Positions 15,798 through 36,782 of a DNA stretch of 64,000 nt are shown here, in pieces (position 1 is the first letter of the stretch; each line of letters opens with the position of its first letter). This DNA comes from Saccharophagus sp. K07 (GTDB lineage Bacteria > Pseudomonadota > Gammaproteobacteria > Pseudomonadales > Cellvibrionaceae). The notes below the pieces were generated by a model. That model ran no database searches. It was not told where the DNA came from and saw only the letters and a list, made by a program, of their open reading frames with translations. The stretch is from the NCBI RefSeq assembly GCF_014336955.1, contig NZ_QRAI01000001.1, forward strand, positions 806,001 to 870,000, read 5' to 3'. Made by a program: the position numbers and the translations under genes.

Positions 15798-16052
15798 GGG
15801 CGAAAGCTGCTCGATAAGGGCGGCTTTCAATGCGTTTTCAAACAACGGTCTTAGAACTGCCTGTCTTTTAATATGCGGGATAAAAATTGGCACTTTTTTA
15901 ACATGAAAGTACCAGTTTTTATCTTGCCGATTCTCGGAATAATTCTTTAAAAACCGGAATCTACGGCACAACTTTTTGCCGGAGAATGGGATAAGGTTTG
16001 GCTCCCAATCATCATATGATTATGGTCAGAACGCATATTTGGAATAAAACCT

Positions 16053-17432
16053 ATGACAAGCAAAAAGCGGAATCTGCTCTCATTTCTTATACCAGCACTC
16101 GCATTACTTACACTCGTAGGATGTGGCAGCGGCGGCGTGAGCCCCACGTCGTCTTCCAGCTCATCCTCGAGTAGCTCTAGTTCCAGTTCTTCATCGTCCA
16201 GTAGTTCCAGTTCCTCATCATCGAGCAGCTCAAGTTCCAGCTCTTCTGGCGCAGCTGAGCTTCCGTTGGTAGTTGCCATTAATGCAGGTAGTAATTCAGC
16301 CGTAACCTTTGAAGGGGTGGAGTATCAGGCGGATAAATATTCTCGCGGTGGTACGCCCAATAGTACTCAAGACTTCGTCATGGGCGGGGCTTTGTACCAA
16401 ACAGAACGTTATGGAACTTTCAGTTATGAAATTCCCGTGACAGCAAACGGTCGATATACAGTACAACTGCACTTTGCCGAAATTTATCAAAACGCTGCAA
16501 ACGCACGTAGTTTCAGTGTCGCAATTGAAGGCAACACCGTAATCCGTGATCTGGATCTCTTTTCCGAAGTGGGTCACGACGTCGGTTACACCGAAACCTT
16601 CCGAGATATTCAGGTTAATGACCGCAGCGTGACGATTGAAATGATCAAAGGGGTGGAAAACCCGACTCTCGCAGGGTTTGCGATTTTTTCCGCTGATGGA
16701 AAATTGGATACAACCGTTGTTCCTACTCCGGATCTGACGAAGTTTTCCGCCTACACCGGCAAGAAAACCAGCAGAACTGTCATGACGTCAAACCATGCTA
16801 CCGGTCATGTTGGAGATTTCTTCTTCACCCACTGGAAAGATGGCGGTTCCACTTCTTTAACTCTGGATACAACCGGAGATTTTAGTGTCAGCTGGCAAGG
16901 CGGTGGTTATAACTACGTCGGTGGCCCTGGTTGGCACTATGGGGATTTGAATCGTGTGATCGGCTTCCGTTTTGCGAGCGATAGCGGCGCAAGCTATATC
17001 GCTCTGTACGGTTGGGGATACGACAAAGATATGCCCAAGTCGAACCCGGCTCACTTGGTTGAATACTATATTTTGCAGCGTTGGACCTATGACCCAAGCC
17101 AGGGTGCAACCTATGGTAAAACCTTCGTGAGTAATGGCGTGGAGTATTCCACCTATCGCTCAACACGAAACCAGCAGCCTTCGATCAACGGCCGCTCGAC
17201 CTTCTACCAATATTGGAGCAAGCCGACTCGCCAAGCTGCATTTGGACAGGATCACAAAATCATATTTGCTGATCACGTGAAGGCATGGGCGGATACAGGT
17301 TGGGTTCTGCCGAATACGAATAATTTGGATGCGAGCGATGACCCCACCTATCAGGTAATCGCGGTCGAAGTGTTCAACCCCGGTAGCAGTGGAACTGCAT
17401 CGGGACGAGTGTGGGACGCGACTGGCCAATAA
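16053..17432 (+). CDS. malectin-like domain plus GH11-type xylanase lipoprotein
   Basis: 459 residues. The lipobox LTLVGC (Cys24) is followed by a 30-plus residue poly-Ser linker. A malectin/CBM57-like domain spans about 69-210 (VVAINAGSNSAVTFEGVEYQAD, YTVQLHFAEIYQ, AGFAIFSADG). From about 230 comes a GH11 jelly roll: FFTHWKDGG, SVSWQGGGYNYVGGPGWHYG, LYGWGY, LVEYYILQRWTYDP, STYRSTRNQQPSINGRSTF, YQYWSKPT, DHVKAWADTGW, YQVIAVEVF. By alignment with GH11 xylanases the nucleophile is Glu337 (VEYY) and the acid/base Glu439 (AVEVF replacing ATEGY). Short insertions before VEYY and in the penultimate loop set it apart from classical GH11. Endo-beta-1,4-xylanase activity at the cell surface is expected. 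It is a near-duplicate of the catalytic domain at 22609-23418. Confidence 0.9.
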   Translation: MTSKKRNLLSFLIPALALLTLVGCGSGGVSPTSSSSSSSSSSSSSSSSSSSSSSSSSSSSSSSSSGAAELPLVVAINAGSNSAVTFEGVEYQADKYSRGGTPNSTQDFVMGGALYQTERYGTFSYEIPVTANGRYTVQLHFAEIYQNAANARSFSVAIEGNTVIRDLDLFSEVGHDVGYTETFRDIQVNDRSVTIEMIKGVENPTLAGFAIFSADGKLDTTVVPTPDLTKFSAYTGKKTSRTVMTSNHATGHVGDFFFTHWKDGGSTSLTLDTTGDFSVSWQGGGYNYVGGPGWHYGDLNRVIGFRFASDSGASYIALYGWGYDKDMPKSNPAHLVEYYILQRWTYDPSQGATYGKTFVSNGVEYSTYRSTRNQQPSINGRSTFYQYWSKPTRQAAFGQDHKIIFADHVKAWADTGWVLPNTNNLDASDDPTYQVIAVEVFNPGSSGTASGRVWDATGQ

Positions 17433-17453
17433 TCCTAAAAAAATTGCGGATTT

Positions 17454-17484
17454 AAAAGGGCGCCCAAATGGCGCCCTTTTTCTT
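17454..17484 (+). terminator. terminator after malectin-GH11 gene
   Basis: AAAAGGGCGC (17454-17463) pairs with GCGCCCTTTT (17471-17480), followed by TTCTTTT. It lies 22 bases past the stop. Confidence 0.88.
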
Positions 17485-17639
17485 TTGCGGCGCTTCATGT
17501 TGTCGCTGCAAATTCTTTATTGTGCGCTATTTCAGGATTTATAACGAAAAGCCATATAACCTACGTAGTTTTATGGTGGCCTGCTCGTTATAGCATTTGA
17601 GAAGGCTCTCTTGCACGCTCAATAAATAAGGAGCTTGTG

Positions 17640-19640
17640 ATGGAAATATTCAGATCCAGACTGCGGGCCTATAGTTTTTTCCCGCTGGTTGCCTGTCTGG
17701 CTGCACCTTTGCTAAGCCATTCTGCTGATGATGGCACGCAAATGAGTGAACCATTTCGCATTAATTATGCGGGCTATTTACCGCAAGCGAGCAAGTTGGC
17801 GTTTTATCTGGTCCCGAATCGCGGAACGATTCAGTGGCAAATTCAGGGCACTAATTGCGCAGGGTCTTCCAATCGTTATGTGAGCAACGATAAAAGCTCT
17901 GGCGACAGTTTTTATGTCATAGATTTTACCGACTGTACTCAGCAGGGAAGAAACTTGCGCGTACAAGTTGGTCAGCATGTATCTCTGCCTTTTGATATAA
18001 GTCCGGATCCTTACGGTGGCATAAAGTACGAATTTTTTGATTATTTTCGCGACCACGAAACCAGTGCCACATTTACCAATGCCAAAAATAACTGGGCGAC
18101 CGGACTTTCGCTGCAATTTCGTTACGTGCGAGATGCGGGTGACAATGGCGCTTATCCGACAAATACCGCAGAAGCATCCTGGGCGCTGATCAATTTGTTG
18201 GAAACCTATCCGAACGTAAATAATTACTACGCCAATGGTTTGCCGGGCGCGCGCACTGTTTACGATCAGCTGAAAATTCTGACTGAACAATTCCATTATG
18301 TGCTGGCGCACGGCGGCGCTTTGGCGATTCCGAAATTTCATACCAATGTCAATCCGTTTTGGGCAGATTGTTCGCCGCACAGCAGCGGCACTTGTATTTC
18401 TGAACCTGAAACCAAGGCGACATTTGCCACTGCGCGAGCCATGGCTGCTATGGCGCGAGTGCATCATAGATTCAATGCACAAAGTGATGCAGAGTCAGCT
18501 TATTCATTGGCGCAACGCGCCTGGAATGGCGCGCGCAATAATCCGCTGAAATGTAATCAGGCGGATGCGTTTGGCGGTGAGGGCGGTTTTTATCCGGATA
18601 ACGATCCCTACAGTTTGTGGCGCGATCCGAAAAAGAATCGCGATAATTGTTACCCGCACAAAAACAATACGGAAGACGATGAATACTCTGCAGCAGTAGA
18701 GCTGTATCTTGCGGCTTTAAAATTAAATCGCAGTAATGATGCCAATCACTATCGCAGCATAGTCGTCGGTCATCCGCGTTTTGATGAAGCAAGTTCCTAC
18801 TGGTGGGGAGCTGTGGCAGCGGAAGGCAGTTTGTCTTTGTTGACCAACGAAGCTCTGCACGACATTGATTTGTCCAATTTAAAATCCAAACTGACGGACA
18901 AAGCCAACGCTATTTTGGGCTTTCAAAATCTCGGTTATCCCGGTGTCACCTGGGATCCAAATTCCTCTCAGTGGAATACCGGCGATCAAGACCATGTGGA
19001 CAACAATGTCCGTTGGGGATCTCATCGCATGGCATTAAATGATGCGCGCATTTTAATGGCGGTTGCGGAAATTCACCGTGCGCGCAGAGATAGCGAATCA
19101 GCCATTAAATACGCTCGCGGTGCCTTGAAAGTAATGGACCATATTTCCGGGCTTAACCCCATTGGCCTTGCAATGTTTACTGCGAATGGTTATTCACAGT
19201 TCGAACATGCCATAGAGCGCACCCACGACGGTGCCGATGATAAAGACACTTGGCCCGGCAAAATGGTGCTCGGTCCCAATAACTGGACTAATGCCGATGA
19301 TTCCGAGATGCCGGAATTTGGTTCTCAGCCCGGTTTGAAGATGTTTGCTGTAACTGGGACGGGATGGGCATCGAGAGAGATCTCCATCGACGGTAATGCC
19401 TCACTGGTGCCAGTTGCTTACTTCACCACAGAAGTGGCGCCAGCGATCCTCGCAGGAGAGCTGCCCCAGGAGCCAGAACCCCAAGAACCACAGCAGCCGG
19501 AGCCTGAGCAGCCTTCGCAACCAGAACAACCTTCACAGCCAGAACAGCCTGCTGCAGGAGCTTTGAGTCGCTTGCATCTGTTTGGCTTGATCGCATTGCT
19601 GTTTGCGGTGCAGTGTCGCCGCTTCGGCTGTCGTTTCTAA
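17640..19640 (+). CDS. glycoside hydrolase family 9 enzyme with C-terminal hydrophobic tail
   Basis: 666 residues from the ATG at 17640 (AAGGAG 6 bases upstream; a GTG just before is possible). A signal peptide is followed by a CelD_N-type Ig domain (FRINYAGYLPQASKLAFYL...VIDFTD, residues about 40-125). The (alpha/alpha)6 catalytic domain has Asp165/Asp168 in YVRDAGDNG and the catalytic Glu580 in SREISIDGNASLVPVAYF, which matches NEVALDYNAxLV of family 9. GLNPIGLAMFTANG replaces the usual GRNPxxxSxVTGxG. After a Pro-Glu-Gln repeat linker (about 610-640) it ends GALSRLHLFGLIALLFAV plus arginines, resembling GlyGly-CTERM/rhombosortase tails. Likely a beta-glucanase or exo-acting glucosidase; the substrate is uncertain. 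Confidence 0.88.
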   Translation: MEIFRSRLRAYSFFPLVACLAAPLLSHSADDGTQMSEPFRINYAGYLPQASKLAFYLVPNRGTIQWQIQGTNCAGSSNRYVSNDKSSGDSFYVIDFTDCTQQGRNLRVQVGQHVSLPFDISPDPYGGIKYEFFDYFRDHETSATFTNAKNNWATGLSLQFRYVRDAGDNGAYPTNTAEASWALINLLETYPNVNNYYANGLPGARTVYDQLKILTEQFHYVLAHGGALAIPKFHTNVNPFWADCSPHSSGTCISEPETKATFATARAMAAMARVHHRFNAQSDAESAYSLAQRAWNGARNNPLKCNQADAFGGEGGFYPDNDPYSLWRDPKKNRDNCYPHKNNTEDDEYSAAVELYLAALKLNRSNDANHYRSIVVGHPRFDEASSYWWGAVAAEGSLSLLTNEALHDIDLSNLKSKLTDKANAILGFQNLGYPGVTWDPNSSQWNTGDQDHVDNNVRWGSHRMALNDARILMAVAEIHRARRDSESAIKYARGALKVMDHISGLNPIGLAMFTANGYSQFEHAIERTHDGADDKDTWPGKMVLGPNNWTNADDSEMPEFGSQPGLKMFAVTGTGWASREISIDGNASLVPVAYFTTEVAPAILAGELPQEPEPQEPQQPEPEQPSQPEQPSQPEQPAAGALSRLHLFGLIALLFAVQCRRFGCRF

Positions 19641-20008: not shown

Positions 20009-22354
20009 ATGTATAAATTTAATAAAACTCTGTTTGGAATTTGGCTACTCTTGACTCTAATCGCGTGTAGCAGCGGTGGTGGAAGCGGCGGCAACAGCAA
20101 CAGCTCGGGCGGAAGCAGTGGTGGGAGCGGGGGCGGGAGCGGGAACGAGCCACCAAAATCCAATTATTCGGTTGCGCTGAATGCATCAAGCATTACTCTG
20201 GAATTGCCTTATGGAGGAACAGCTGAACCTAAATTGGTATCGGTGAATTTTGTTGGCGATGGTCTGGTTGTTGGTTATCCGCCAGGCAACTCTAATGATC
20301 AACCGGTAACAGCAGAAATTCTCAGTAATTCCGGCAAATCCGCTGTCGTGGCTCTTGCTGCAGCTCCGGGACTGTCATATCCGGAGTTGGGAACTTACTC
20401 CACCGTTATCCGGTTTGCCACTGGCAGCGCGGATGGAACCGAATATGTGTACAAGGATTTGCAAGTCAGAATTGTCCAGCTGGATGGGTTTGATATTCAG
20501 CTTGCCTCGAGCCCTGTCTATAGCGGAATTTGGGGGGACGGTGGTCACTCAGCTTTTGTTGTACGAACTTTTGAGAAATCCTGGTCGGTCAGTTCGTCAT
20601 CACCAGGCGTTCGTTTTACTCCTGAATCGGGAAAAGGAACCGAAACCGTTCTGGTCACCCACGATCCGGATGAGACTCCGGTAGGATCATCTGAAAAAAC
20701 CATTACTTTCACAGCGGGTTCCGGTGAATCCATATCCAAAACGATTTCATATCAGTTACGGTTGCCTGAACTCTCGCAATTGAATGATCTGATCCATTTG
20801 CCGAATCATGATAAAGGACAGAGTTTGTCGCCTGTGGCGCTCAGCTTGAATTTCCAGAATGGTGTAGCCGTTCCATGGACAGCGACAGCCAGTCCATGGA
20901 TTAGTTTGACTTCAGCGGAAGGTGTCACCGGTCAAAATGATATTGAGTTTTATGTCAGTAATGAGGTTTTTCCTGGTGAAGCCGAAAACATGAATGGGGT
21001 GATCACTGTTGAATTCGACATTCCTGGTGCATCATTCAGTCGTGAAATCCAAGTGAATTTTCCCTTTGAACCCTTTTATATTCAGGCTGCACCCTCGGCG
21101 ATAGCCCATTCGGATTACAATACTTGGGAAAACCACGACGGAAAAATCATCGTAAACCTACCGCTCAATAATATTGAAGGGGTAACAAGCTCAGCGCCTT
21201 GGTTGATCATCCATGACGTGTCAGAAAAGTTTATTTTTTATCGTTTAGAGACGACGGATCTGCCATTTGGATATCATGAGGCCACGATATCTGTGGCGCA
21301 GCCACAACTAAATGGCGTGGTTGCAACACAAATTAATGTGGGTTACTACAAGTCTGAATTGCCTGCCACTTATGGTGAAAATGGTGAATGGAGTAGTGAT
21401 GCATTCGCGGTGGCAGACAAATTGGGTCCCTGGTTATACATCGGCCGCTCGGATTCCCCGAACAGTATCGCTAAATATAATTTCATCACTAAATCAGTTG
21501 AAGAAACGGTGGTAGTGGAAGAGCTGGAGAAAATTGGCGCTTTAACCATAAGTGATGATGGCAAAACCTTATATGGTTTGTCCTACGATTGGGGGACAGG
21601 ATGGGGGAAATTGCTCCAAATCCATTTGGATGATTTTGCCAACTACTCAATCGTGAATATTGATGGACCTCAATCACCCGATTTTTTGCGTTACGCGCGA
21701 TTTAACGGCAAAAGTATGGTGAGCGATGGTGGTGGCTGGTTTGATGCGGATTCTGGTTCGCTGATTTTATACAGCGGCGATTATCATCCCTATAAATACA
21801 GTAAAACCGGTGAATATTTCCTGACGCCGAGTTCATATACTCCCGGTGGAATTTTTTATTCAAAATACACCTACAGCTATTTGACCAACGAACTGGCGAG
21901 AACGTCATTAGGCAGTCTCGAAATGGATATGCGCACCAATTCGCTTAATTTGTCTACGAATGAGGATTGGATGGTTCTCGTTACGGCGAATATGGAAGAG
22001 ACTGAAAAAACGGTCACATCCTTTCGTCTTGCAAACGAGCTTGACTATACGCTTGAGACCTCGGGAAGAATGCATCTCCATTTCAATGATATCGAGGGAT
22101 ATCCCTGGGCTGATGTAAGTGGTAGAGGCGTTATAGCGGTGCAGGTTGATCGATTTCGCACGACCGATGAAGATGAAAGGGTATTATCTTTGTTTACAGC
22201 GAATCTTGAACTTATCGCCGAACATAAAATCGACTGGTTTCATTATTTTGCAGCCGATTGGCGAACATTTACCGGCGATGGAAAACTCTTTTCATCTTTT
22301 GTAAAACAGCCAGGCCGTGAGACAGGAACAATGTACCTATATTCCTCCAAATAA
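20009..22354 (+). CDS. BACON-like / propeller-like surface lipoprotein
   Basis: 781 residues. The lipobox LIACSS is followed by a Gly/Ser linker (GGGSGGNSNSSGGSSGG), unlike the pure Ser linkers of its neighbours. Residues about 50-440 hold three or four Ig-like repeats with BACON flavour (WTATASPWISLTSAEGVTGQNDIEFYVSNE; SAPWLIIHDVSE; EATISVAQPQLNG). From about 455 a repetitive beta region begins (GPWLYIGRSDSPNSIAKYNFITKSVEE, ALTISDDGKTLYGLSYD, RYARFNGKSMVSDGGG), suggesting a WD/YVTN-type propeller. No catalytic motif is seen. BACON domains often accompany polysaccharide-binding surface proteins; its place between GH9 and GH11 genes suggests a binding or scaffold role (inference). The truncated gene at 7944-8890 looks similar in type. 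Confidence 0.75.
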   Translation: MYKFNKTLFGIWLLLTLIACSSGGGSGGNSNSSGGSSGGSGGGSGNEPPKSNYSVALNASSITLELPYGGTAEPKLVSVNFVGDGLVVGYPPGNSNDQPVTAEILSNSGKSAVVALAAAPGLSYPELGTYSTVIRFATGSADGTEYVYKDLQVRIVQLDGFDIQLASSPVYSGIWGDGGHSAFVVRTFEKSWSVSSSSPGVRFTPESGKGTETVLVTHDPDETPVGSSEKTITFTAGSGESISKTISYQLRLPELSQLNDLIHLPNHDKGQSLSPVALSLNFQNGVAVPWTATASPWISLTSAEGVTGQNDIEFYVSNEVFPGEAENMNGVITVEFDIPGASFSREIQVNFPFEPFYIQAAPSAIAHSDYNTWENHDGKIIVNLPLNNIEGVTSSAPWLIIHDVSEKFIFYRLETTDLPFGYHEATISVAQPQLNGVVATQINVGYYKSELPATYGENGEWSSDAFAVADKLGPWLYIGRSDSPNSIAKYNFITKSVEETVVVEELEKIGALTISDDGKTLYGLSYDWGTGWGKLLQIHLDDFANYSIVNIDGPQSPDFLRYARFNGKSMVSDGGGWFDADSGSLILYSGDYHPYKYSKTGEYFLTPSSYTPGGIFYSKYTYSYLTNELARTSLGSLEMDMRTNSLNLSTNEDWMVLVTANMEETEKTVTSFRLANELDYTLETSGRMHLHFNDIEGYPWADVSGRGVIAVQVDRFRTTDEDERVLSLFTANLELIAEHKIDWFHYFAADWRTFTGDGKLFSSFVKQPGRETGTMYLYSSK

Positions 22355-23450: not shown

Positions 23451-23676
23451 TTGCTCGCACTTTTTTCTGGTCATTTTTACCCAATATTCCCTTGTCCTGC
23501 GCCCCTTTCCTGGTGATTTGCTACTTAATCACCGTCAAATCTCCGTCTTTTTGACTGCGTCACATTAGTTTCTTTGAAATCATTGTCACAAATCGGTTAA
23601 TTGTTAGCGCCTGCACACCCTGAGATTTTGTAACATCAATGGTCATATGAAATGACAACAAAAAGTGGGTTTAACC

Positions 23677-25980
23677 ATGATCGGAGTAGCAAGGTTTTGT
23701 CGGACAAGAAGCCACTGGCTCTTGGCCTTTTATCTAATTTTTAACTTGGCTGCCTGCGGTAGTGAGGGCGATGAGCCTTCATCAGGCGGTGCTAGTTCAT
23801 CCAGCAGTTCCAGCTCTTCGAGCAGCAGCTCCAGCTCCTCAGGTTTTACGTGCTCCTCCTGCGTTGGCCTGATTCTGAATGAAGCGGTTTCGTCGAATTC
23901 GGAATTCAAAGACGAGGATGGGGACAGCGAAGACTGGTTTGAGATACATAACCACAGCAACAACCCAGTCCGGTTGGCGGGTTGGAGTGTGTCCGATGAC
24001 GAGCTTGAACCGCAAAAATGGCAGTTCCCCGATATCACTTTGGACGCGGGCGGCTATCTGGTGGTGTGGGCTTCGGATAAGGACCGATCTGAGCCTGGTC
24101 GACCTTTACACGCCAACTTCAAAATCTCTTCCTCTGGCGAAACCCTGTACCTGTTTGAAAACGGAACCCTCAAGCAATTTCTGCACATTGAAGGATTGCG
24201 CACAGGCACCTCCGTTGGTCTGTCTGAGGTGAGCAAGTCGACGGTTTATTACGATCAGCCGACGCCCGGTGCGGCCAATAGCGCGCGCGAGTATCGCGGC
24301 GTTCTTAATGGTTTGGTGGAGTTTTCCGATAAAGGTGGAATAACGGAAGCCTCAATGGTGATGCTAAATGGCGCTGAGGCCAATCAAACCATTCGTTACA
24401 CGCTCGATGGCAGTGTGCCCAATGAGAATTCACCGGTTTATCAGGGCGCAATTTTTCTGACAAAAAATACCGCGATTCGCGCGCGTATTTTTGCCGATGG
24501 TTATATTCCCTCGGTTGTGCAATCGCGCACCTTCCTGGTTGGTGCCCGACACGATATTCCGGTGGTTACTTTGGAAGCGGATCCATTGGATTTTTTTGAT
24601 ACGGAGTACGGCATCTATGTACTCGGTCCAAAATACGAGCCTATGCCACCCAACTATGGAGCTAACTTCTGGCAGGATTGGGAGCGGGAAATTCACTTTG
24701 CGTTTTACGAGCCGGATGGTGCTCTGGGAACAGAATTCAGCGCCGGTGTGCAGATCTTTGGTGGATACACACGATCATTTGCGCAAAAAGCCTTGGCTAT
24801 ATATGCGCGCAGTCGCTATGGCGTGGACAAATTTGACTATCGCTTTTTCCCCCAGCTGAGCTACAAAAAATTCGAACATTTAGTGTTGCGCGCATCGGGC
24901 AACGATTGGATGCGTACTATGCTGCGGGATCGCGCATTCACCACCTTGATGGAGGGAAGTGGCCTCGATTATCAAGCGGGACGCGCTGTCGCGGTTTATT
25001 TAAATGGCGAGTACTGGGGCTTGCATAACCTGCGCGAAAAAGTCAACGAAGCTTTCTTAAACTCTAAACATGATGTCAAGAAAAAAGATGTCACCATCTT
25101 GGAGGCGAATGCAGAAGTTGTCGAAGGCTCCAACGAAGAGTATTTGGCGTTAATCGATTATGTGTCGAAAACGGATCCAGAGTTGCCTGAGTTCTACTCT
25201 ACAGTTGCAGAGCAAGTTGATATCGAAAACTTTATCGCCTATCAGGTTGTGCAAATATTTATCGCCAACGACGACTGGCCGGTAAGGAACATCAAGTATT
25301 GGAAAACTCCGAAAACCAAATGGCGTTGGATTTTGTACGACACCGATTTTGGTTTCGGTCTGTACGAACGCAATGTGCAGAAAAATTCCCTGGCTTACGC
25401 GACAGCTGCGAACGCCATGGGCGCTAATGTAAATAATCCGCCCTGGTCGACCTTGTTGCTACGTCGCCTGCTGCAGAATCCACAATTCCGGCAGCAATTC
25501 ATCAATTATTTTGCGGACCAATTAAATACTCGTTTCCTACCCTCGAATGTAGCAGCTGTTGTAGAGCGTCTGGCAGACGAAATCCGCACGGAAATCCCAC
25601 TGCAAAAAGCTCGCTGGGGAGGTCAGCGCAGTACCTGGAATTGGGAAAGCGAAATTCAAAGCCTGATCACCTATGGCAACGCCAGACCGAATTATGTGTG
25701 GCAGCACCTGCGCCAATATTTTGGGTTGTCTGATCCTCATAATCTGTCCGTAACAGCTCTCAATACGGCGATGGGCAGTGTCCAGGTCAATTCTGTTGCA
25801 GTCGCGCAGGAGAGTTGGAGTGGGCAATATTTTGCGGAAGTTCCTATAACGGTAACCGCTGTTCCCAAAGCGGGTTATCGCTTCTCTCATTGGGAAGGGG
25901 ATATAACTTCAGCAGACAGAACGCTCAGCGTGTCCTTGGTTGAAGATTTGAATCTGACGCCGGTTTTTGTGGCGGAGTAA
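23677..25980 (+). CDS. lamin-tail / CHB_HEX_C / CotH-kinase-like lipoprotein
   Basis: 767 residues from the ATG at 23677 (an in-frame GTG at 23665 is possible; neither has a strong ribosome site). The lipobox LAAC is followed by a short poly-Ser linker. A lamin-tail domain (LILNEAVSSNSEFKDEDGD, WFEIHN, LAGWSVSDD) spans about 60-170. A chitobiase-C-terminal-like Ig domain (IRYTLDGSVPNENSPVYQGAI) lies at about 205-285. A CotH-type kinase domain covers about 290-680, with LVLRASGNDWMRTMLRDRAF, YWGLHNLREKVNEAF and WRWILYDTDFGFGLY, the last holding the candidate metal-binding Asp pair. It ends with a divergent InlB-repeat-like domain (FSHWEGDITSADRTLSV). CotH domains are atypical protein kinases in Bacillus spores; here a secreted modification or adhesion role is inference. 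Confidence 0.85.
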   Translation: MIGVARFCRTRSHWLLAFYLIFNLAACGSEGDEPSSGGASSSSSSSSSSSSSSSSGFTCSSCVGLILNEAVSSNSEFKDEDGDSEDWFEIHNHSNNPVRLAGWSVSDDELEPQKWQFPDITLDAGGYLVVWASDKDRSEPGRPLHANFKISSSGETLYLFENGTLKQFLHIEGLRTGTSVGLSEVSKSTVYYDQPTPGAANSAREYRGVLNGLVEFSDKGGITEASMVMLNGAEANQTIRYTLDGSVPNENSPVYQGAIFLTKNTAIRARIFADGYIPSVVQSRTFLVGARHDIPVVTLEADPLDFFDTEYGIYVLGPKYEPMPPNYGANFWQDWEREIHFAFYEPDGALGTEFSAGVQIFGGYTRSFAQKALAIYARSRYGVDKFDYRFFPQLSYKKFEHLVLRASGNDWMRTMLRDRAFTTLMEGSGLDYQAGRAVAVYLNGEYWGLHNLREKVNEAFLNSKHDVKKKDVTILEANAEVVEGSNEEYLALIDYVSKTDPELPEFYSTVAEQVDIENFIAYQVVQIFIANDDWPVRNIKYWKTPKTKWRWILYDTDFGFGLYERNVQKNSLAYATAANAMGANVNNPPWSTLLLRRLLQNPQFRQQFINYFADQLNTRFLPSNVAAVVERLADEIRTEIPLQKARWGGQRSTWNWESEIQSLITYGNARPNYVWQHLRQYFGLSDPHNLSVTALNTAMGSVQVNSVAVAQESWSGQYFAEVPITVTAVPKAGYRFSHWEGDITSADRTLSVSLVEDLNLTPVFVAE

Positions 25981-31174: not shown

Positions 31175-33862
31175 ATGCGTAAGATACTAGTCATAGGAAT
31201 GCTGAGTTTGATGTTGGCAGCGTGTGGGGACGACGAGACCTCATCCGGCGACGTCACCAGCAGTTCATCGAGCAGCAGCTCGTCAAGCAGCAGTTCTTCA
31301 AGTAGCAGTTCGTCGTCCAGCAGCACTTCTTCAAGCAGTAGTTCATCATCAAGCAGTTCATCGAATGGTGGGATGTCGAGCGGTGACGCCGTGAGAGGCA
31401 AGGCGACTTTCGCCGCTCGCTGCACCACCTGTCACAAAGACGATAACGACGACGGTTATTTTGGAACCAACGACGGCATATCCGGAGATACAGGTGTCTA
31501 CAAAATTGACCCTGATGACCTGGGTTCACCCTCGATTTATCCGTCTTACAACGGCGCTTCTCGAGATGGCTTGGCAGCGTTTATCCAACAGTACATGGGG
31601 CCAGCCGCAGGCTGTGACGCTCAGTGTGCCTTGGATACCGCCACTTACATTTGGTCACTGAAAGATGGTGTTAAGGGACCAACTGCTGGAGTCATCGCGT
31701 GTACCAATCCTAATGCCATTCATTACGGCAAACGCACGCTCCATATCCTGAGTTCTTACGAATATCACAACTCTTTGAGCCAGCTGTTCACCCTCCCGTT
31801 ACCAGACGACTATTCCTCTCCGGCTAAGTTTGGTCTCGACGTTACCATTGCGCGTTTGCCAAACCACGTGAGTGAAACGCTCAACGAAACTCGCGTTAAC
31901 AACTTCTATGACAACGCAGTAGAAATTGCTGACTGGGCAATCTCTTCCAATGCGTTGCCGTTCTCTTGTGACGACCCTATCCAGTGCGCCACGGATTTCA
32001 TTAATGAATTCGCGTACGTAGCGTATCGACGTGCGTTGACCGAGGTGGAGCAGGCTGATATCAACCTGATTTTCACTGAAGCTCCTAGCCTGGAAGATGG
32101 CTTGAAGTGGGCGATCCGCACAGTGTTGATGTCGCCTAACTTCCTGTACCGCTCAGAATTGGGAACCAAGGTTTCCGATCTGCTGGCCAATCCAGTTGTC
32201 GCGCCTGGCACCAAGTATGAATTCCAAGGTACGCCTACGACTTTCAGAAACCTGAAAATCGAGCGCTATAACCGCATTAGCGTTGATAACTCCGGAACTT
32301 ACTCCTATCGCTGGACAGGCAAAGACCTGATTGCTATCAGCGTCAAAGGTGCGAAGAGTGAATTCGATCGCTGGCCGGTTCTGACTATTGGTGCAGGTTA
32401 CGGCGATGGCGGCGTTCTGCAGCGCATCACTGTTAACCACAGTGGTTATCGCACTTACTACATAGTGGTCGACAAAGTTCCGAATGGTCCGATCTACTTC
32501 CTGAATGACGCCAACTACGCTGGCAACGACTACCTGATGCCGCCGATCGAAGTTGCCACTTTGAGCATCGGTGTTCAGGGTGAAGCCAAGCCGGTACAAG
32601 ACGATGTCACCAAGTTGCGTGCAGCGGATCAGAACGCTTATGCGTTGGATCCTTATGAATACGCATCCGCACTCTCTTTTGCATTGACCGGTTCTGGTCC
32701 TTCCAAAGCTCTGTTGGATGCAGCGGTGGCAGGTGAGCTGGTTGATCTTGCTAAACGCGAAGCTCACGTCGATGCCTTGATCGATTCTCCGCTCGGTAAG
32801 AAACACATCGAGCGCCTCGGCGGTAAATGGTTCAGCACAGATGGTCTGACTGAGAAGACTCGTAACGTAGCCGAGTTCACTCCTGAAGTGCGTCAATCCA
32901 TGATGCAAGAGATTCGCGAGATCTTTAAACACGTGTTCTACAACGGCGACTTCCCGAGCATGTACCGCGGTGACTTTACCTATCTCGACAAGACCTTGTC
33001 AGATTTCTACAAGTTGCCTGGTGGCGGTTCCTCTCACGGTGACTTCCGTTATGTCGATACCACTGGCACTCCTCGTGGTGGTGTGATCGCGTCCGGTGCT
33101 TACATGGCATACAACGCACATATGGATTACACCTCTCCGATTCAGCGTTCAGCTCACTTCCGTCAGGACGTGTTGTGTCAAGCGATTCCGCTGCCAACCA
33201 ACTTGGAAGACTCTGAAGAGCGTGCCGCCGCTGCCAAGATGTTGGAAGCTCGCTTACAAGCAGGCGATATCACCACTGCGGACTGGTATGACAAGCAAAC
33301 CAATATTCCAGGTTCTTCTTGTGCCGCATGCCATAACGCCATCATCAACCCCTTGTTCGGCATTGATGACTTCGACAACGTAGGCCGTCTGCGTCCTCGT
33401 GTTAACGGTAAGGTGGTACAGGACGGTCTGATCGCGATCAATGGTGTTCCAGTGCCACAAGGTGTGCGCAACTTGGAAATCACCCAGGTCAGCGAAGGCT
33501 ATCTGTATGGCTATGATGCAGTGGGAACCCTGTCTGGTGCGAAAGCGGATGCCGCCAAAGCTTCTGGTGATGGCTTGAGATTCTCCGGTGCGAAAGAGCT
33601 CAGCCGCCTGGTTGTGGACAACGATTTGCCTGGCGTATCTGCTTGCTTGATCGAGAAGACAACTCGTTATGCTCTTGGATACACGCTGAACAAGGTTCTG
33701 TTGGATCCTGCAGAGAATGGATATTACGGTATCAGCAATGCACAAGCGGCTGAATTTGCCTGTGTTAAGCAGGAACTTGAAGCTGCCTACGCTAAAAACA
33801 AGAGCCCGCGCGACGTGCTGAAAGCCGTTGTTATGTCTGACTCTTTCCGATTCCGTAAATAA
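31175..33862 (+). CDS. poly-Ser DUF1592-type haem lipoprotein with inserted CBM60-like module
   Basis: 895 residues. The lipobox MLAAC is followed by a very long Ser linker (about residues 28-63). A cytochrome c motif CTTCH (Cys83) opens the globular part. DUF1587-like (ILSSYEYHNSLSQLF), DUF1595-like (FAYVAYRRALTEVEQ) and DUF1592 (LDPYEYASALSFALTG) blocks follow, then DUF1588 (RGGVIASGAYMAYNAHMDYTSP...SCAACHNAIINPLFGIDDFD, with haem motif Cys716) and DUF1585 (ELSRLVVDNDLPGVSACLIEK). Between DUF1595 and DUF1592 residues about 345-465 form a beta-sandwich resembling CBM36/CBM60 xylan-binding modules (SVKGAKSEFDRWPVLTIG, FLNDANYAGNDY). The family is found with DUF1552 proteins, as here. Likely a surface redox protein targeted to polysaccharide; the reaction is unknown. 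Confidence 0.85.
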   Translation: MRKILVIGMLSLMLAACGDDETSSGDVTSSSSSSSSSSSSSSSSSSSSSSTSSSSSSSSSSSSNGGMSSGDAVRGKATFAARCTTCHKDDNDDGYFGTNDGISGDTGVYKIDPDDLGSPSIYPSYNGASRDGLAAFIQQYMGPAAGCDAQCALDTATYIWSLKDGVKGPTAGVIACTNPNAIHYGKRTLHILSSYEYHNSLSQLFTLPLPDDYSSPAKFGLDVTIARLPNHVSETLNETRVNNFYDNAVEIADWAISSNALPFSCDDPIQCATDFINEFAYVAYRRALTEVEQADINLIFTEAPSLEDGLKWAIRTVLMSPNFLYRSELGTKVSDLLANPVVAPGTKYEFQGTPTTFRNLKIERYNRISVDNSGTYSYRWTGKDLIAISVKGAKSEFDRWPVLTIGAGYGDGGVLQRITVNHSGYRTYYIVVDKVPNGPIYFLNDANYAGNDYLMPPIEVATLSIGVQGEAKPVQDDVTKLRAADQNAYALDPYEYASALSFALTGSGPSKALLDAAVAGELVDLAKREAHVDALIDSPLGKKHIERLGGKWFSTDGLTEKTRNVAEFTPEVRQSMMQEIREIFKHVFYNGDFPSMYRGDFTYLDKTLSDFYKLPGGGSSHGDFRYVDTTGTPRGGVIASGAYMAYNAHMDYTSPIQRSAHFRQDVLCQAIPLPTNLEDSEERAAAAKMLEARLQAGDITTADWYDKQTNIPGSSCAACHNAIINPLFGIDDFDNVGRLRPRVNGKVVQDGLIAINGVPVPQGVRNLEITQVSEGYLYGYDAVGTLSGAKADAAKASGDGLRFSGAKELSRLVVDNDLPGVSACLIEKTTRYALGYTLNKVLLDPAENGYYGISNAQAAEFACVKQELEAAYAKNKSPRDVLKAVVMSDSFRFRK

Positions 33863-33869
33863 TAAGTTT

Positions 33870-33893
33870 CGCGGCGGGACATAAACCGCCGCG
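33870..33893. other. intercistronic hairpin
   Basis: CGCGGCGG and CCGCCGCG pair across 8 bases between the DUF1592 and DUF1552 genes. With no T-run it is more likely an mRNA-stabilising or processing element than a terminator. Confidence 0.6.
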
Positions 33894-33916
33894 TAGCCAA
33901 AACAGGTTATACGACC

Positions 33917-35212
33917 ATGACAGATATAAAGAAAATGAAAGAACCCGATCAGAAAGTTGCAGAAGCTCAGCGCAAAGATGTGCAAAGATCCCGTCGCAAG
34001 TTTCTCGATCTTGTTGCCAAATCCGGTATCGCTTCATCCACCTTGCGTTTTTCCAGCCTGCTGGGCGGTATCATGACCGCACGATATGCGCATGCGCAGG
34101 AAACGCCAAAGCGCGTAGTCTATTGCTACATTCACAGTGGCTCGCCTGAAGACTGGCGTCCATCTTCTGCTTCCAACATCTCCAGCTCGGCGTCTTCTTT
34201 CCACTATGGTCCTGGCAGCTACAACGTTGCGCAGATCTGCCACTTCCGCGGTGTTGATACCGAGGTTGCGGGGCACGGTGGTGCTCGGCAGGCGCTGGGG
34301 GGCGACTACACCCGCAATACCGTGGACGTAGATCTCGGACCTATTTTGGGACCGCGTAGTTACTACACCACTATCTTCCTTGGCTCCAATGCCGCAGATG
34401 CGGGCTCTGGTCCCGGCATGATCATCAGTAAAGGTGGTTTGCCGATTGAGGATCCCAAACAAGCGTTGGGCCGCTATTTTGGTGCTCTGCCGGAAGTTGG
34501 CAAAGACGACACCTATAAGTTGTCTTTTGAAGCGCAAAAACGCGCAATCGACAGCATCAAGAAAAAGCTCAGCACTGAAGAGCATGATCGTTTGGCGAAG
34601 CACTTGACCGCGATCGAAAAAATCGAGGCTCGTATTGCGGATTTGGCGAACGCTGCGGCGCCGGACCTCAACGCTTGCAAACCAACTATTCCTGGCACTT
34701 ACGATGATTCAACCAATGCGGGAATGGTGGAGCACTCCAAATTGCAGGCGGACATCATCGTCGCTGCATTCCAGTGCGACTTGACCCGAGTTGCGGTGCT
34801 GCAGATCGGTAACCACAACGGCGGTGGCTGGACCTATCGCGGTTTTGACGGACACAGCGCGGCTCACTCTGGTGGTGCTTCCGTGTGGAACCCAATGATG
34901 CGCGAGAAATTCGAGGTACCTGCGTATTTCATCAAGAAATTGATGGATACCTTGGACTCTGATGGTCAACCACTGATCAATAGCACGGCGTTCTGTCAGG
35001 TGACTTGCTTCGGTAACGGCTTGTCACACGCATCGACGGATGCGCCTTTCTTGTTGGCAACCAAGATGCCTGGATTCAAATCCGGTTTTTCATCCAAAGG
35101 CACAGCCTCGACTTCAAGAGACTTCCATGCGGAAGTTGCAAAAGGTCTGGGTATAGATCCGAAAGGATTGCACTTGGGTGGTGCAACCGGCGGCGATGTC
35201 GGCTTGACCTGA
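33917..35212 (+). CDS. DUF1552 protein, Tat-exported
   Basis: 431 residues. The N-terminus carries RSRRKFLDLVAKSG, an excellent twin-arginine motif, then a moderate hydrophobic stretch ending ARYAHAQ, so it should be exported folded, possibly with a cofactor. The DUF1552 body includes VVYCYIHSGSPEDWRP, FRGVDTEVAGHGGARQALGGDYT, LGSNAADAGSGPGMIISKGGLP, HSKLQADIIVAAFQCDLTRVAVLQIGNHNGGG and NSTAFCQVTCFGNGLSHAS. The fold is related to the DUF1501/alkaline-phosphatase-like superfamily. It lies 54 bases after the DUF1592 gene, the standard pairing for this family, and shares its terminator. Substrate unknown. Confidence 0.9.
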   Translation: MTDIKKMKEPDQKVAEAQRKDVQRSRRKFLDLVAKSGIASSTLRFSSLLGGIMTARYAHAQETPKRVVYCYIHSGSPEDWRPSSASNISSSASSFHYGPGSYNVAQICHFRGVDTEVAGHGGARQALGGDYTRNTVDVDLGPILGPRSYYTTIFLGSNAADAGSGPGMIISKGGLPIEDPKQALGRYFGALPEVGKDDTYKLSFEAQKRAIDSIKKKLSTEEHDRLAKHLTAIEKIEARIADLANAAAPDLNACKPTIPGTYDDSTNAGMVEHSKLQADIIVAAFQCDLTRVAVLQIGNHNGGGWTYRGFDGHSAAHSGGASVWNPMMREKFEVPAYFIKKLMDTLDSDGQPLINSTAFCQVTCFGNGLSHASTDAPFLLATKMPGFKSGFSSKGTASTSRDFHAEVAKGLGIDPKGLHLGGATGGDVGLT

Positions 35213-35239
35213 TAGACGCAGATCCATCTATAGAAGTAA

Positions 35240-35270
35240 AAAGCCTCGCCATTGGCGGGGCTTTTTTTTG
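35240..35270 (+). terminator. terminator of the DUF1592-DUF1552 operon
   Basis: AAGCCTCGCC-ATT-GGCGGGGCTTTTTTTT, a GC-rich stem with one G-T pair followed by eight Ts, 28 bases past the stop. Confidence 0.93.
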
Positions 35271-35387
35271 CTGCCCGAGATAGAAGGGTGGGAATCTTTG
35301 CCGAATGAGGTTCTAGGCGAACTGAGTGGAGAGTGATACCTTCCGGATCTCTAACGAGACGTCCAAGTTTATAAACGTTGGTGAGCG

Positions 35388-36782
35388 ATGACTGAAAAAG
35401 CCGATTTTATTTTTCCTTCAGGGGTATTGATTTGCCCTATATGTGCTCAGGAATTGAGTTCATTTCACTGCCATGGGTGCAACAGCGAATTTTTTCCCTT
35501 GGGAGAAATACCTTGCGTATTCACCACCGGAATCCAGCAAAAAAATCTTTGGCAGCATCAAATGGCCATGATGGAAACCCAGGGTGCAGATGCGCTGGAG
35601 CATTTGGATTACATCCTTCAGGGATATGATGTGTCGCCGCGCAGCCGGGAGCGGTTGGAGCAGGCCTATGATGCGATGAAAGAAAGCCTGGAAATGATCA
35701 TGGGCTTGCTGAAAGACGGGGGATTGCGCAGTCAGCGCAGTGAGTTATTTGAAAAAATGACCGTCGATAACCCCACCGAGTATTACCACCACATTCTGCG
35801 CGACTGGGCGTGGGATGCAGAACCGAGCAAACACTTTAAAACCCATGTGAACGACGCGAATTTGCAGCGGGTGCTCGGAATCTGGCCGGAGTTGCAGCCG
35901 GAGAAAATGTTGTTTCTTGGCGCCGGGGCAGGGCGCTTGAGTTGGGATTTGCACAAAACGTTTAAACCGCAATACACCATTGCATCGGATATCAATCCCT
36001 TTCTTTTGATTTGCGCTCAAACGCTGATCAAGCGTCGCCACTCCATTACCTTGCCAGAACTCTATACCTATCCGCAGATCGGCTATCCCTATTCCAAATC
36101 CTGGGTTATGAATCCGCCGGACGACCCAGAGGGATTGCACAAAAACTGGTTTGCCTTGGGGGCTGATGTCTGGAATATGCCGCTCAAAGAAAGCAGCGTG
36201 GATACGATAGTGACTTCGTGGTTGCTGGATGTGACGGGCGGAGATGTTAAAGACCTTATTGCGGTGATCGATTATTTGCTGAAACCTGGCGGTTACTGGA
36301 TCAACACTGGGCCTTTATTATATTCCGGGCAGCTGAGTTTTGAATTGAAATACTCCGCCGAGGAAATTTTAGATTTTGCCCAGATGGCGGGTTTCGAGGT
36401 GGAAAAACAAAGCGTCGAAGAAGTTGCCCATATGGCTTCGCCCTTGAATGCGCGCTATCACCATGAGCAGGTATTTTCCTTTTCGGCCCGCAAGCGCACG
36501 GAGCCACGACCTGTGGCGAAGCCTGGAAAGACAGCTGAATGGTTGACGCCCGCCTGGCTCGTAATGCACCACCAGCCAGTTCCGCAGATCGATTTCCAAT
36601 GTGAAATGGGCCACGACTTTATTCGCAATGTATTGAGTCTTGTCGACGGAAAAAGAAGCATTTATTTGATTGCGCAACTGGTGCAGCCAACTTTGCCTCC
36701 CGGTGTGGATGCAAAAGAAGCGGTGGTGGCTTTATTCGGACAAATCTTGGAACAGATGGCTGATGCGCCTGAAAAAGAGTGA
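35388..36782 (+). CDS. N2227-like SAM-dependent methyltransferase with N-terminal zinc ribbon
   Basis: 464 residues. An N-terminal CPICAQELSSFHCHGC suggests a zinc ribbon (Cys-x2-Cys, Cys-x2-Cys). The central methyltransferase resembles the carnosine N-methyltransferase family (N2227): YYHHILRDWAWD, MLFLGAGAGRLSWDLHKTF (SAM-binding motif I), ASDINPFLLICAQ, DTIVTSWLLDVTGGDVKDLI, YLLKPGGYWINTGPLLY. The last 90 residues (NVLSLVDGKRSIYLIAQLV) resemble a PqqD-like winged helix that could bind a peptide substrate. No signal peptide. Alone between two terminators. The substrate is unknown; a small peptide or imidazole compound is suggested by family resemblance only. Confidence 0.75.
   Translation: MTEKADFIFPSGVLICPICAQELSSFHCHGCNSEFFPLGEIPCVFTTGIQQKNLWQHQMAMMETQGADALEHLDYILQGYDVSPRSRERLEQAYDAMKESLEMIMGLLKDGGLRSQRSELFEKMTVDNPTEYYHHILRDWAWDAEPSKHFKTHVNDANLQRVLGIWPELQPEKMLFLGAGAGRLSWDLHKTFKPQYTIASDINPFLLICAQTLIKRRHSITLPELYTYPQIGYPYSKSWVMNPPDDPEGLHKNWFALGADVWNMPLKESSVDTIVTSWLLDVTGGDVKDLIAVIDYLLKPGGYWINTGPLLYSGQLSFELKYSAEEILDFAQMAGFEVEKQSVEEVAHMASPLNARYHHEQVFSFSARKRTEPRPVAKPGKTAEWLTPAWLVMHHQPVPQIDFQCEMGHDFIRNVLSLVDGKRSIYLIAQLVQPTLPPGVDAKEAVVALFGQILEQMADAPEKE

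Follow-up and report, generated by a model that had tools for sequence, protein, structure and literature searches.

Two adjacent genes of the marine bacterium Saccharophagus sp. K07 encode an 895-residue haem protein with a DUF1592 domain and a 431-residue DUF1552 protein. They lie in a stretch of 64,000 nt (contig NZ_QRAI01000001.1, positions 806,001-870,000 of the forward strand), here called the window. On balance, and by a modest measure of probability, we favour the view that the pair is a variant of the Cbp2D class and forms an extracellular complex for electron transfer targeted to polysaccharides, whose electron acceptor we leave open. The computed basis for this view is the domain make-up of the haem protein, the insertion of a module in a defined slot, the homology to Cbp2D, the regular pairing of the two genes and the predicted folds. 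The 895-aa protein would be a lipid-anchored di-haem electron-transfer protein, with one haem in an X183 domain and the other in an X132 domain. A CBM60-like beta-sandwich lodged in X132 would hold the protein on a polysaccharide, and electrons would be passed to or from a nearby polymer-cleaving oxidative step, such as a lytic polysaccharide monooxygenase (LPMO) of family AA10 or the X132 haem itself. The DUF1552 protein, to judge from its RR motif, would be exported folded through the twin-arginine translocation (Tat) pathway and act as a dedicated partner of alkaline-phosphatase-type fold; lacking a recognisable nucleophile, it is probably a subunit that binds a metal or ligand, and not a phosphatase.

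An earlier note, made from the sequence of this DNA, had given coordinates for the two open reading frames (ORFs) that proved right, with 54 bp between them. The features of the pair, all on the + strand, are the following.

31175-33862, +: 895-aa lipoprotein with lipobox LMLAAC, poly-Ser linker, X183 cytochrome and X132-type module with an inserted beta-sandwich (Pfam, alignment, AlphaFold; lipobox and linker read from the sequence)
31370-31663, +: X183-type c-type cytochrome domain, residues ~66-163, with CxxCH at 83-87, M141 as likely axial ligand and Cys147/Cys151 (profile and structure match)
32168-32635, +: insert slot, residues 332-487, ~155-160 residues, with a predicted beta-sandwich at ~348-470 of divergent CBM60 type (slot lengths, Pfam, hhalign, AlphaFold)
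32645-33862, +: C-terminal X132 part, with DUF1592, DUF1588 carrying the second CxxCH (716-720), and DUF1585 (Pfam, alignment, BLASTP)
33917-35212, +: 431-aa DUF1552/HXXSHH partner with a Tat-like SRRKFL motif and a predicted alkaline-phosphatase-superfamily fold (Pfam, motif, model, fold search)

Haem domains and kinship with Cbp2D

Pfam placed four domains above cut-off in the 895-aa protein, namely DUF1595/PSD5 (271-328), DUF1592/PSD4 (491-613), DUF1588/PSCyt3 (634-741) and DUF1585/PSD2 (799-840). The lipobox Cys17, both haem-binding motifs (C83-H87 and C716-H720) and M141 do not vary among 13 aligned homologues, and the AlphaFold model of the full protein has a mean predicted local distance difference test (pLDDT) score of 91.5. 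These data bear out the domain picture of the earlier note, which comprised a haem protein, an extra stretch between DUF1595 and DUF1592 and a twin-arginine DUF1552 neighbour. In the draft genomes of loci L037 and L054 the DUF1592 gene is broken into two or three overlapping ORFs, by error or decay.

The N-terminal domain matched Pfam Cytochrom_C at residues 73-163 with 20.1 bits in the whole-protein scan (cut-off 21.3) and 22.4 bits when the N-terminal part was scanned alone. A profile of 23 homologous N-terminal domains matched the solved X183 domain of Cbp2D (7b21) with an E of 1.9e-27 and TtX183B (8q1w) with an E of 3.6e-19. The domain combines that match with a CxxCH, a conserved Met and a second Cys pair, as expected of X183. 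Structural comparison of the model gave 8q1w at Z 8.2 (root mean square deviation [rmsd] 2.3, 35% identity, 75 aligned residues), level with a match to thiosulfate dehydrogenase 4wq9 (Z 8.4). An axial Met ligand is reported for TtX183 (PMC10916295), and the invariant Met141 is likely its equivalent, judging from the alignment.

Cellvibrio japonicus needs Cbp2D to grow on insoluble cellulose (PMC12542752); the protein has the architecture CBM2-X158-FN3-X183-X132 (PMC8981238). Its C-terminal domain was named X132, with DUF1587 at its start (PMC8981238 and PMC10916295, the latter printing DUF1687). We identified a locus (L191) encoding a 1122-aa protein, preceded by an ORF whose later in-frame ATG (residue 19) gives 350 aa; since Cbp2D and Cbp2E have 1,122 and 350 aa (PMC12542752), we take the longer protein to be Cbp2D. 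It contains CBM2, YceI, DUF1587, DUF1595, DUF1592 and DUF1588 domains, FN3 not being listed at E 0.001. This protein and the DUF1587 label in the figure legends suggest that X132 corresponds to the DUF1595/1592/1588 set of Pfam. By BLASTP, the window protein aligned to it over residues 483-895 (E 3e-28) and 47-330 (E 4e-15), skipping the insert. It therefore carries, behind an X183 domain, a DUF1595-DUF1592-DUF1588 module with a CxxCH that is homologous to the C-terminus of Cbp2D, which makes it a variant of a known, poorly understood redox system. CBM2, X158 (YceI) and FN3 were not found in it by Pfam.

We assembled homologues from genomes of the family Cellvibrionaceae and from 79 loci of named genome contigs, yielding 100 proteins after removal of near-copies at 90%; the sampling is weighted toward two peptide patterns. 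In a 99-row tree, Cbp2D and all 35 proteins bearing an insert in the slot fall in one 60-row clade with support of 100/100, together with the window protein. Half of the homologues chosen for a Pfam scan (4/8) carry GH5, CBM2, CBM4_9 or malectin domains. As a separate observation, one ORF (L058:4827-9890), which lies inside the 60-row clade, encodes a 1688-aa chain combining a GH5 cellulase domain, several cytochrome c domains and DUF1587/1595/1592/1588.

Within the family, 68 of 144 genomes matched the DUF1592 protein at E <= 1e-10, a lower bound because six candidates were scored per genome. AA10 LPMO genes were present in 58 of those 68 and in 32 of the 76 others, a comparison that ignores phylogeny; the K07 genome itself has one AA10 gene. 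Several results weigh against a polysaccharide-directed electron-transfer role. An AA10 match was not found in 4 of the 23 genomes with a DUF1592 match at E <= 1e-55 (G010, G033, G051 and G057), and the matches were weak (E 1.4e-5 to 2.0e-8) in three Marinagarivorans-type genomes (G055, G056 and G058), indicating that an LPMO is not an obligatory acceptor. Isolated TtX183 domains did not drive an LPMO, CjX183 doing so slowly (PMC10916295). By eye, no glycoside hydrolase (GH) gene adjoins the pair, and the only YceI-domain match in the K07 genome lies in a 208-aa frame, a Cbp2E-like CBM2-X158 protein not being seen there.

The missing AA10 genes also bear on a second explanation, in which the X132 module (DUF1592-1588-1585) is itself an oxidative polymer-cleaving enzyme and X183 feeds or drains its haem, so that no LPMO is needed. 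Cbp2D and Cbp2E were proposed to cut cellulose directly, their deletions growing worse than that of lpmo10B (PMC12542752), and the long core of the module has many invariant residues in the 13 homologues. However, the excerpts of the literature describe X132 with neither an assigned function nor a reported activity, and no enzyme fold is in evidence, the core having been neither folded nor searched separately. We regard this explanation as unlikely, though deserving more weight than those discussed below.

For the electron-transfer complex, the suggestion of the earlier note that it is a secreted redox system acting on polysaccharides finds support in the X183-X132 homology to Cbp2D, in the GH and CBM fusions and in the phenotypes of cbp2D, such a role being putative for the window protein. 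That the polymers come from plants, as the note proposed, is one possibility: among named genomes, Marinagarivorans and other Cellvibrionaceae hold the closest relatives, with Marinimicrobium agarilyticum also among the relatives, whereas the window holds GH11 and GH9 genes. The latter lie ~11.5-18 kb upstream of the pair (window positions 13161-19640), where genes for a glucose/sorbosone dehydrogenase-like protein (878 aa), a GH11 xylanase with malectin and a GH9 enzyme with CelD_N stand in a row.

The insert between DUF1595 and DUF1592

In the 100 homologues, the gap between DUF1595 and DUF1592 measures 2-32 residues in 65 and 139-190 residues in 35, with no intermediate lengths. The distribution of the insert on the tree requires nine changes of state, which rules out a single origin in its simplest form. 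The bimodal gap and these nine changes together identify the slot as a site of repeated domain gain or loss. In one homologue (L067:5439-8198) the same slot holds an insert that looks unlike the CBM60-type ones by eye and has no Pfam match at E 0.001.

The earlier note had proposed a CBM60-like module at residues 345-465, limits that agree with the AlphaFold strands at ~348-470. We aligned the 34 inserts other than that of L067, and Pfam recognised CBM60 in 22 of them at E <= 0.1 (best 3.2e-15), the window copy not being among these. A scan of 61 genomes found CBM60 at cut-off inside the DUF1592 proteins of L055, L060 and L043, and also of L040 and L064 when frame neighbours were counted. The insert of L040, which is 36% identical to that of the window, matched CBM60 with an E of 1.4e-5. 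In hhalign comparisons with 22 CBM60 modules taken from places other than DUF1592 proteins, a profile of 13 inserts gave an E of 3.8e-6 and that of all 34 inserts an E of 2.6e-7. As Pfam itself sees CBM60 likeness in some of the 13 inserts and in many of the 34, the link of the window copy to CBM60 rests on its homology to its slot-mates.

The insert is modelled by AlphaFold as a beta-sandwich with a pLDDT of 82-96 per ten-residue block. Among the structural matches listed are a phage depolymerase (9qrm, Z 9.5), CBM36 (1w0n, Z 8.7, rmsd 3.1, 98 aligned residues; 7ay3, Z 8.6), CBM29 and CBM6, Z values that would not be convincing by themselves. A CBM60 structure was absent from the 50 matches listed, a number that cannot exclude one. 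Homology to CBM60 by hhalign thus goes together with a predicted beta-sandwich and with CBM36 among the top structural matches.

Three results tell against CBM60 identity for the window copy. With the insert alone, Pfam reported no CBM60 (PF16841) match at E up to 10, so that the curated cut-off was not reached; it listed the DUF1595 flank (E 0.055) and a CD1107-like match (E 0.11), and an NCBIfam scan of the whole 895-aa protein yielded no usable match to the insert. A profile built from the five inserts closest to it, which is too thin, did not match CBM60 significantly (E 0.083). Finally, the ND and DR(D/N) signature hardly varies, if at all, across the 22 CBM60 modules, and in the window insert ND is possible while the second signature Asp (D-R-D/N) has no clear counterpart, the loop alignment being uncertain.

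The comparison with CBM36 and CBM60 that the earlier note had suggested therefore came out in part, with a beta-sandwich and CBM36 matches but no Pfam CBM60 match for this copy. Its claim holds for the insert family and for the fold, and does not extend to ligand or calcium binding by the window copy. Our verdict, from homology and modelling, is that the insert is a divergent CBM60-type module, at most a putative calcium-dependent xylan binder.

The eroded signature also fits the idea that this beta-sandwich serves as a docking site for a protein, either the DUF1552 partner or another one, instead of binding a sugar, and the sandwich matches, at Z ~7-9.5, are spread over many unrelated proteins among those listed. 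Yet DUF1592 proteins devoid of an insert are also paired with DUF1552, so the insert is not needed for pairing, and for this reason we set it aside as the binder of the partner. Moreover, in relatives this slot is occupied by clear CBM60 modules or, in the case of L067, by an insert of another kind. Docking by the insert thus appears rather improbable to us.

The DUF1552 partner

We scored a locus as paired when a DUF1552 gene lay downstream on the same strand at -300 to +4000 bp, the loci having been fetched through the DUF1592 protein only. By this strict rule a partner was present at 88 of the 100 loci, which share ancestry, and in 85 of the 88 it lay at <= 81 bp or overlapped. Among the 12 unpaired loci, three (L038:13292, L039:1 and L111) run into the end of the stretch, and in L100 the sequence goes on for just 355 bp. 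DUF1552 lies just upstream in L128 and L155, and in L116, L135, L149 and L160:10843 its ORF overlaps that of DUF1592 beyond the allowed limit and ends past it. In L160:5224 it is elsewhere, and in L104 it was not found in 6 kb. In the K07 genome, a DUF1552 gene directly follows all four DUF1592 genes; contig 9 holds one more DUF1552 locus, the fifth, which lacks a DUF1592 match. The gene located 47 bp after cbp2D (L191) is also of DUF1552 type, and its product shares 29% identity with the window partner (E 6e-29).

The window partner matched HXXSHH/DUF1552 (PF07586) with an E of 8.7e-22 and 78.5 bits (cut-off 30). The SRRKFL motif reported by the earlier note is present near its N-terminus, the RR pair being followed by a hydrophobic stretch, and a loose Tat-like RR pattern occurs in 81 of the 85 partners that reach 350 aa, three shorter ones having been skipped. 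A sequence search of the PDB with the partner found nothing, and we therefore turned to a fold search. The model, of mean pLDDT 84.5, matched LtaS in Foldseek (E 4.6e-4). The structural matches listed, at Z 14.8-16.0 over 224-264 aligned residues, include ENPPs, sulfatases and phosphoethanolamine transferases, with ENPP4 at Z 16.0 (rmsd 3.3, 227 aligned residues) and sulfatases at Z 14.8-15.8. The earlier note had made the partner part of the redox system; a share in the redox centre is not supported by this predicted fold, which is that of the alkaline-phosphatase superfamily.

Such matches raise the idea that the partner is an active sulfatase or phosphatase stripping sulfate or phosphate from algal polymers beside the haem protein, and the names of relatives (Marinagarivorans, Marinimicrobium agarilyticum) suggest agar degraders. 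The alignment of 62 partners argues otherwise. At the expected place of the nucleophile, judged from secondary structure, no conserved Ser, Thr or Cys was seen, and that region holds H120, present in 62/62. The strand-1 Asp position has Asp in 24 of the 62 and Ser (S74) in the window, and the Asp/Glu position of T-D-M-G is Asp or Glu in 49 and Cys in the window (C364) and 11 others. H313 is likewise invariant and H317 and H371 occur in 61/62, and these three would form a candidate partial set of metal ligands. Given the lack of a conserved nucleophile and the variable ligand positions, the partner is probably not a standard phosphatase or sulfatase, and we consider an active enzyme of that kind improbable.

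Pairs without the insert occur in Thiothrix, Methylococcus, a Campylobacterota metagenome-assembled genome and many Myxococcota. Their existence could suggest that the pair is a module of the planctomycete cytochrome type with a general redox or stress role in the periplasm, unconnected with polysaccharides, and a secreted DUF1552 protein of Rhodopirellula figures in a list of shared stress-response genes (PMC2754498). Nevertheless, the 60-row clade that unites the window protein with Cbp2D leaves out the rows from Thiothrix, Methylococcus and Campylobacterota and most of those from Myxococcota; it takes in five rows from Myxococcota and one from Methylococcaceae. That clade includes proteins with CBM2, CBM4_9 or GH5 domains and, through Cbp2D, a growth phenotype on cellulose. 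A general stress module is therefore quite improbable in our estimation, and the polysaccharide-targeted complex remains our preferred explanation. The earlier note's statement that the pair has no established reaction agrees with the literature consulted, although a genetic phenotype exists for the homologue Cbp2D.

A third gene, and comparison with known systems

Two further features follow the pair.

35238-35269, +: intrinsic-terminator-like hairpin followed by a T run, 3' of the DUF1552 gene (35225-35275 folds at -21.3 kcal/mol, z -4.4)
35388-36782, +: 464-aa CARNMT1-like methyltransferase with an N-terminal CPxC...CxxC segment, a conserved third gene (Pfam, PDB sequence match, family search)

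A consensus scan for promoters and terminators returned no more sites than in shuffled sequences and did not list the hairpin. The third gene product matched PF07942 (E 5.4e-18) and, over residues 137-365, human CARNMT1 (5yf0, E 8e-12), which establishes homology of the catalytic domain. CARNMT1 is reported to methylate protein histidines in C3H zinc fingers (PMC12275196), and the bacterial protein is probably also a histidine methyltransferase.

We defined the long form of this protein by a match starting at or before query residue 24. It was found in 14 of the 144 family genomes, all 14 with a DUF1592 match at E <= 1e-89. Two further genomes with such a match do not have it, namely G002, where the methyltransferase match is short, and G057, which is 72% complete. 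Among 30 long-form copies, DUF1552 precedes 14 at a distance of 20-288 bp and another three at 1.36-1.59 kb, the latter with Lcl_C-type genes in between. Six of the remaining 13 adjoin a DUF1592-DUF1552 pair; in four of these the copy follows the pair on the same strand, in L205 it precedes the pair and in L202 it is on the opposite strand. The other seven have no pair in the fetched stretch (L198, L201, L203, L206, L207, L208 and L210), L206 being cut by a contig end 197 bp upstream and L208 being a 4.8-kb contig; the genes around these seven may point to a different target of the enzyme. In total, 23 of the 30 copies adjoin or lie within 1.6 kb of a pair, counts that are not independent events. 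No match to the methyltransferase was found in G015, the genome carrying cbp2D; together with the hairpin between the genes in the window, this indicates that it is not obligatory.

A Tat substrate that folds in the cytoplasm would be a natural candidate target of such an enzyme. One might imagine a three-gene system in which the CARNMT1-like protein methylates histidines of DUF1552 (H120, H313, H317, H371) in the cytoplasm, after which the folded protein leaves via Tat and joins the di-haem X183-X132 protein in a new polysaccharide-oxidising complex. We consider this a long shot.

Other genes were noticed around the pair. Homologues of an Lcl_C-domain protein are encoded just behind DUF1552 in other branches of the family (L043, L051, L052, L053, L054, L056 and L116), in three of them before the methyltransferase; the Pfam assignment comes from the L043 and L056 proteins. 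CotH kinase and lamin-tail-domain proteins are encoded near the cassette both in the window (23665-25980) and in a genome of the same genus (L035:10150-12504), and a 781-aa ORF at 20009-22354 has no Pfam match at E 0.01.

The domain families, their fusions to carbohydrate-binding modules (CBMs) and their regular neighbours were already described for Verrucomicrobia (PMC5615132). Our literature search found neither a coupling of cbp2D with a DUF1552 gene nor a joint mention of DUF1592 and DUF1552, and a link of the methyltransferase to the pair was not found in the literature searched. CBM60 inside DUF1592 proteins was not met in the passages available, no search having been aimed at that pair of terms. 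For the field concerned with Cbp2D and growth on insoluble cellulose, the pair offers a first lead, a DUF1552 gene of predicted alkaline-phosphatase fold that lies behind cbp2D and accompanies DUF1592 genes from Myxococcota to Gammaproteobacteria. A second is the probable histidine methyltransferase that accompanies the pair in some members of the family.

Compared with known systems, the third gene product aligns with human CARNMT1, a carnosine N-methyltransferase and protein histidine methyltransferase, but has the CPxC...CxxC segment and, after GPLLY, a Ser in place of the human His. The insert shares with CBM60 and CBM36 modules a predicted beta-sandwich and the family-level homology of the slot inserts, whereas the window copy is below Pfam detection and has no clear second signature Asp. 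The planctomycete-specific cytochrome proteins (PSCyt/PSD) have the same domain families, CBM fusions and regular neighbours, but the CBMs named in the excerpts of PMC5615132 are Laminin_G_3, Bac_rhamnosid_N, NPCBM, CBM_6 and PA14, with no CBM60 there. There is likeness, too, to Cbp2D of C. japonicus and to TERTU_2913 and TERTU_3803 of Teredinibacter turnerae, which have an X183 cytochrome and a C-terminal X132 with a second CxxCH and, at the L191 locus, the one checked, a DUF1552 gene directly downstream. Unlike them, the window protein is a lipoprotein with a poly-Ser linker and a CBM60-like module inside X132, and no CBM2 or YceI/X158 was found in it.

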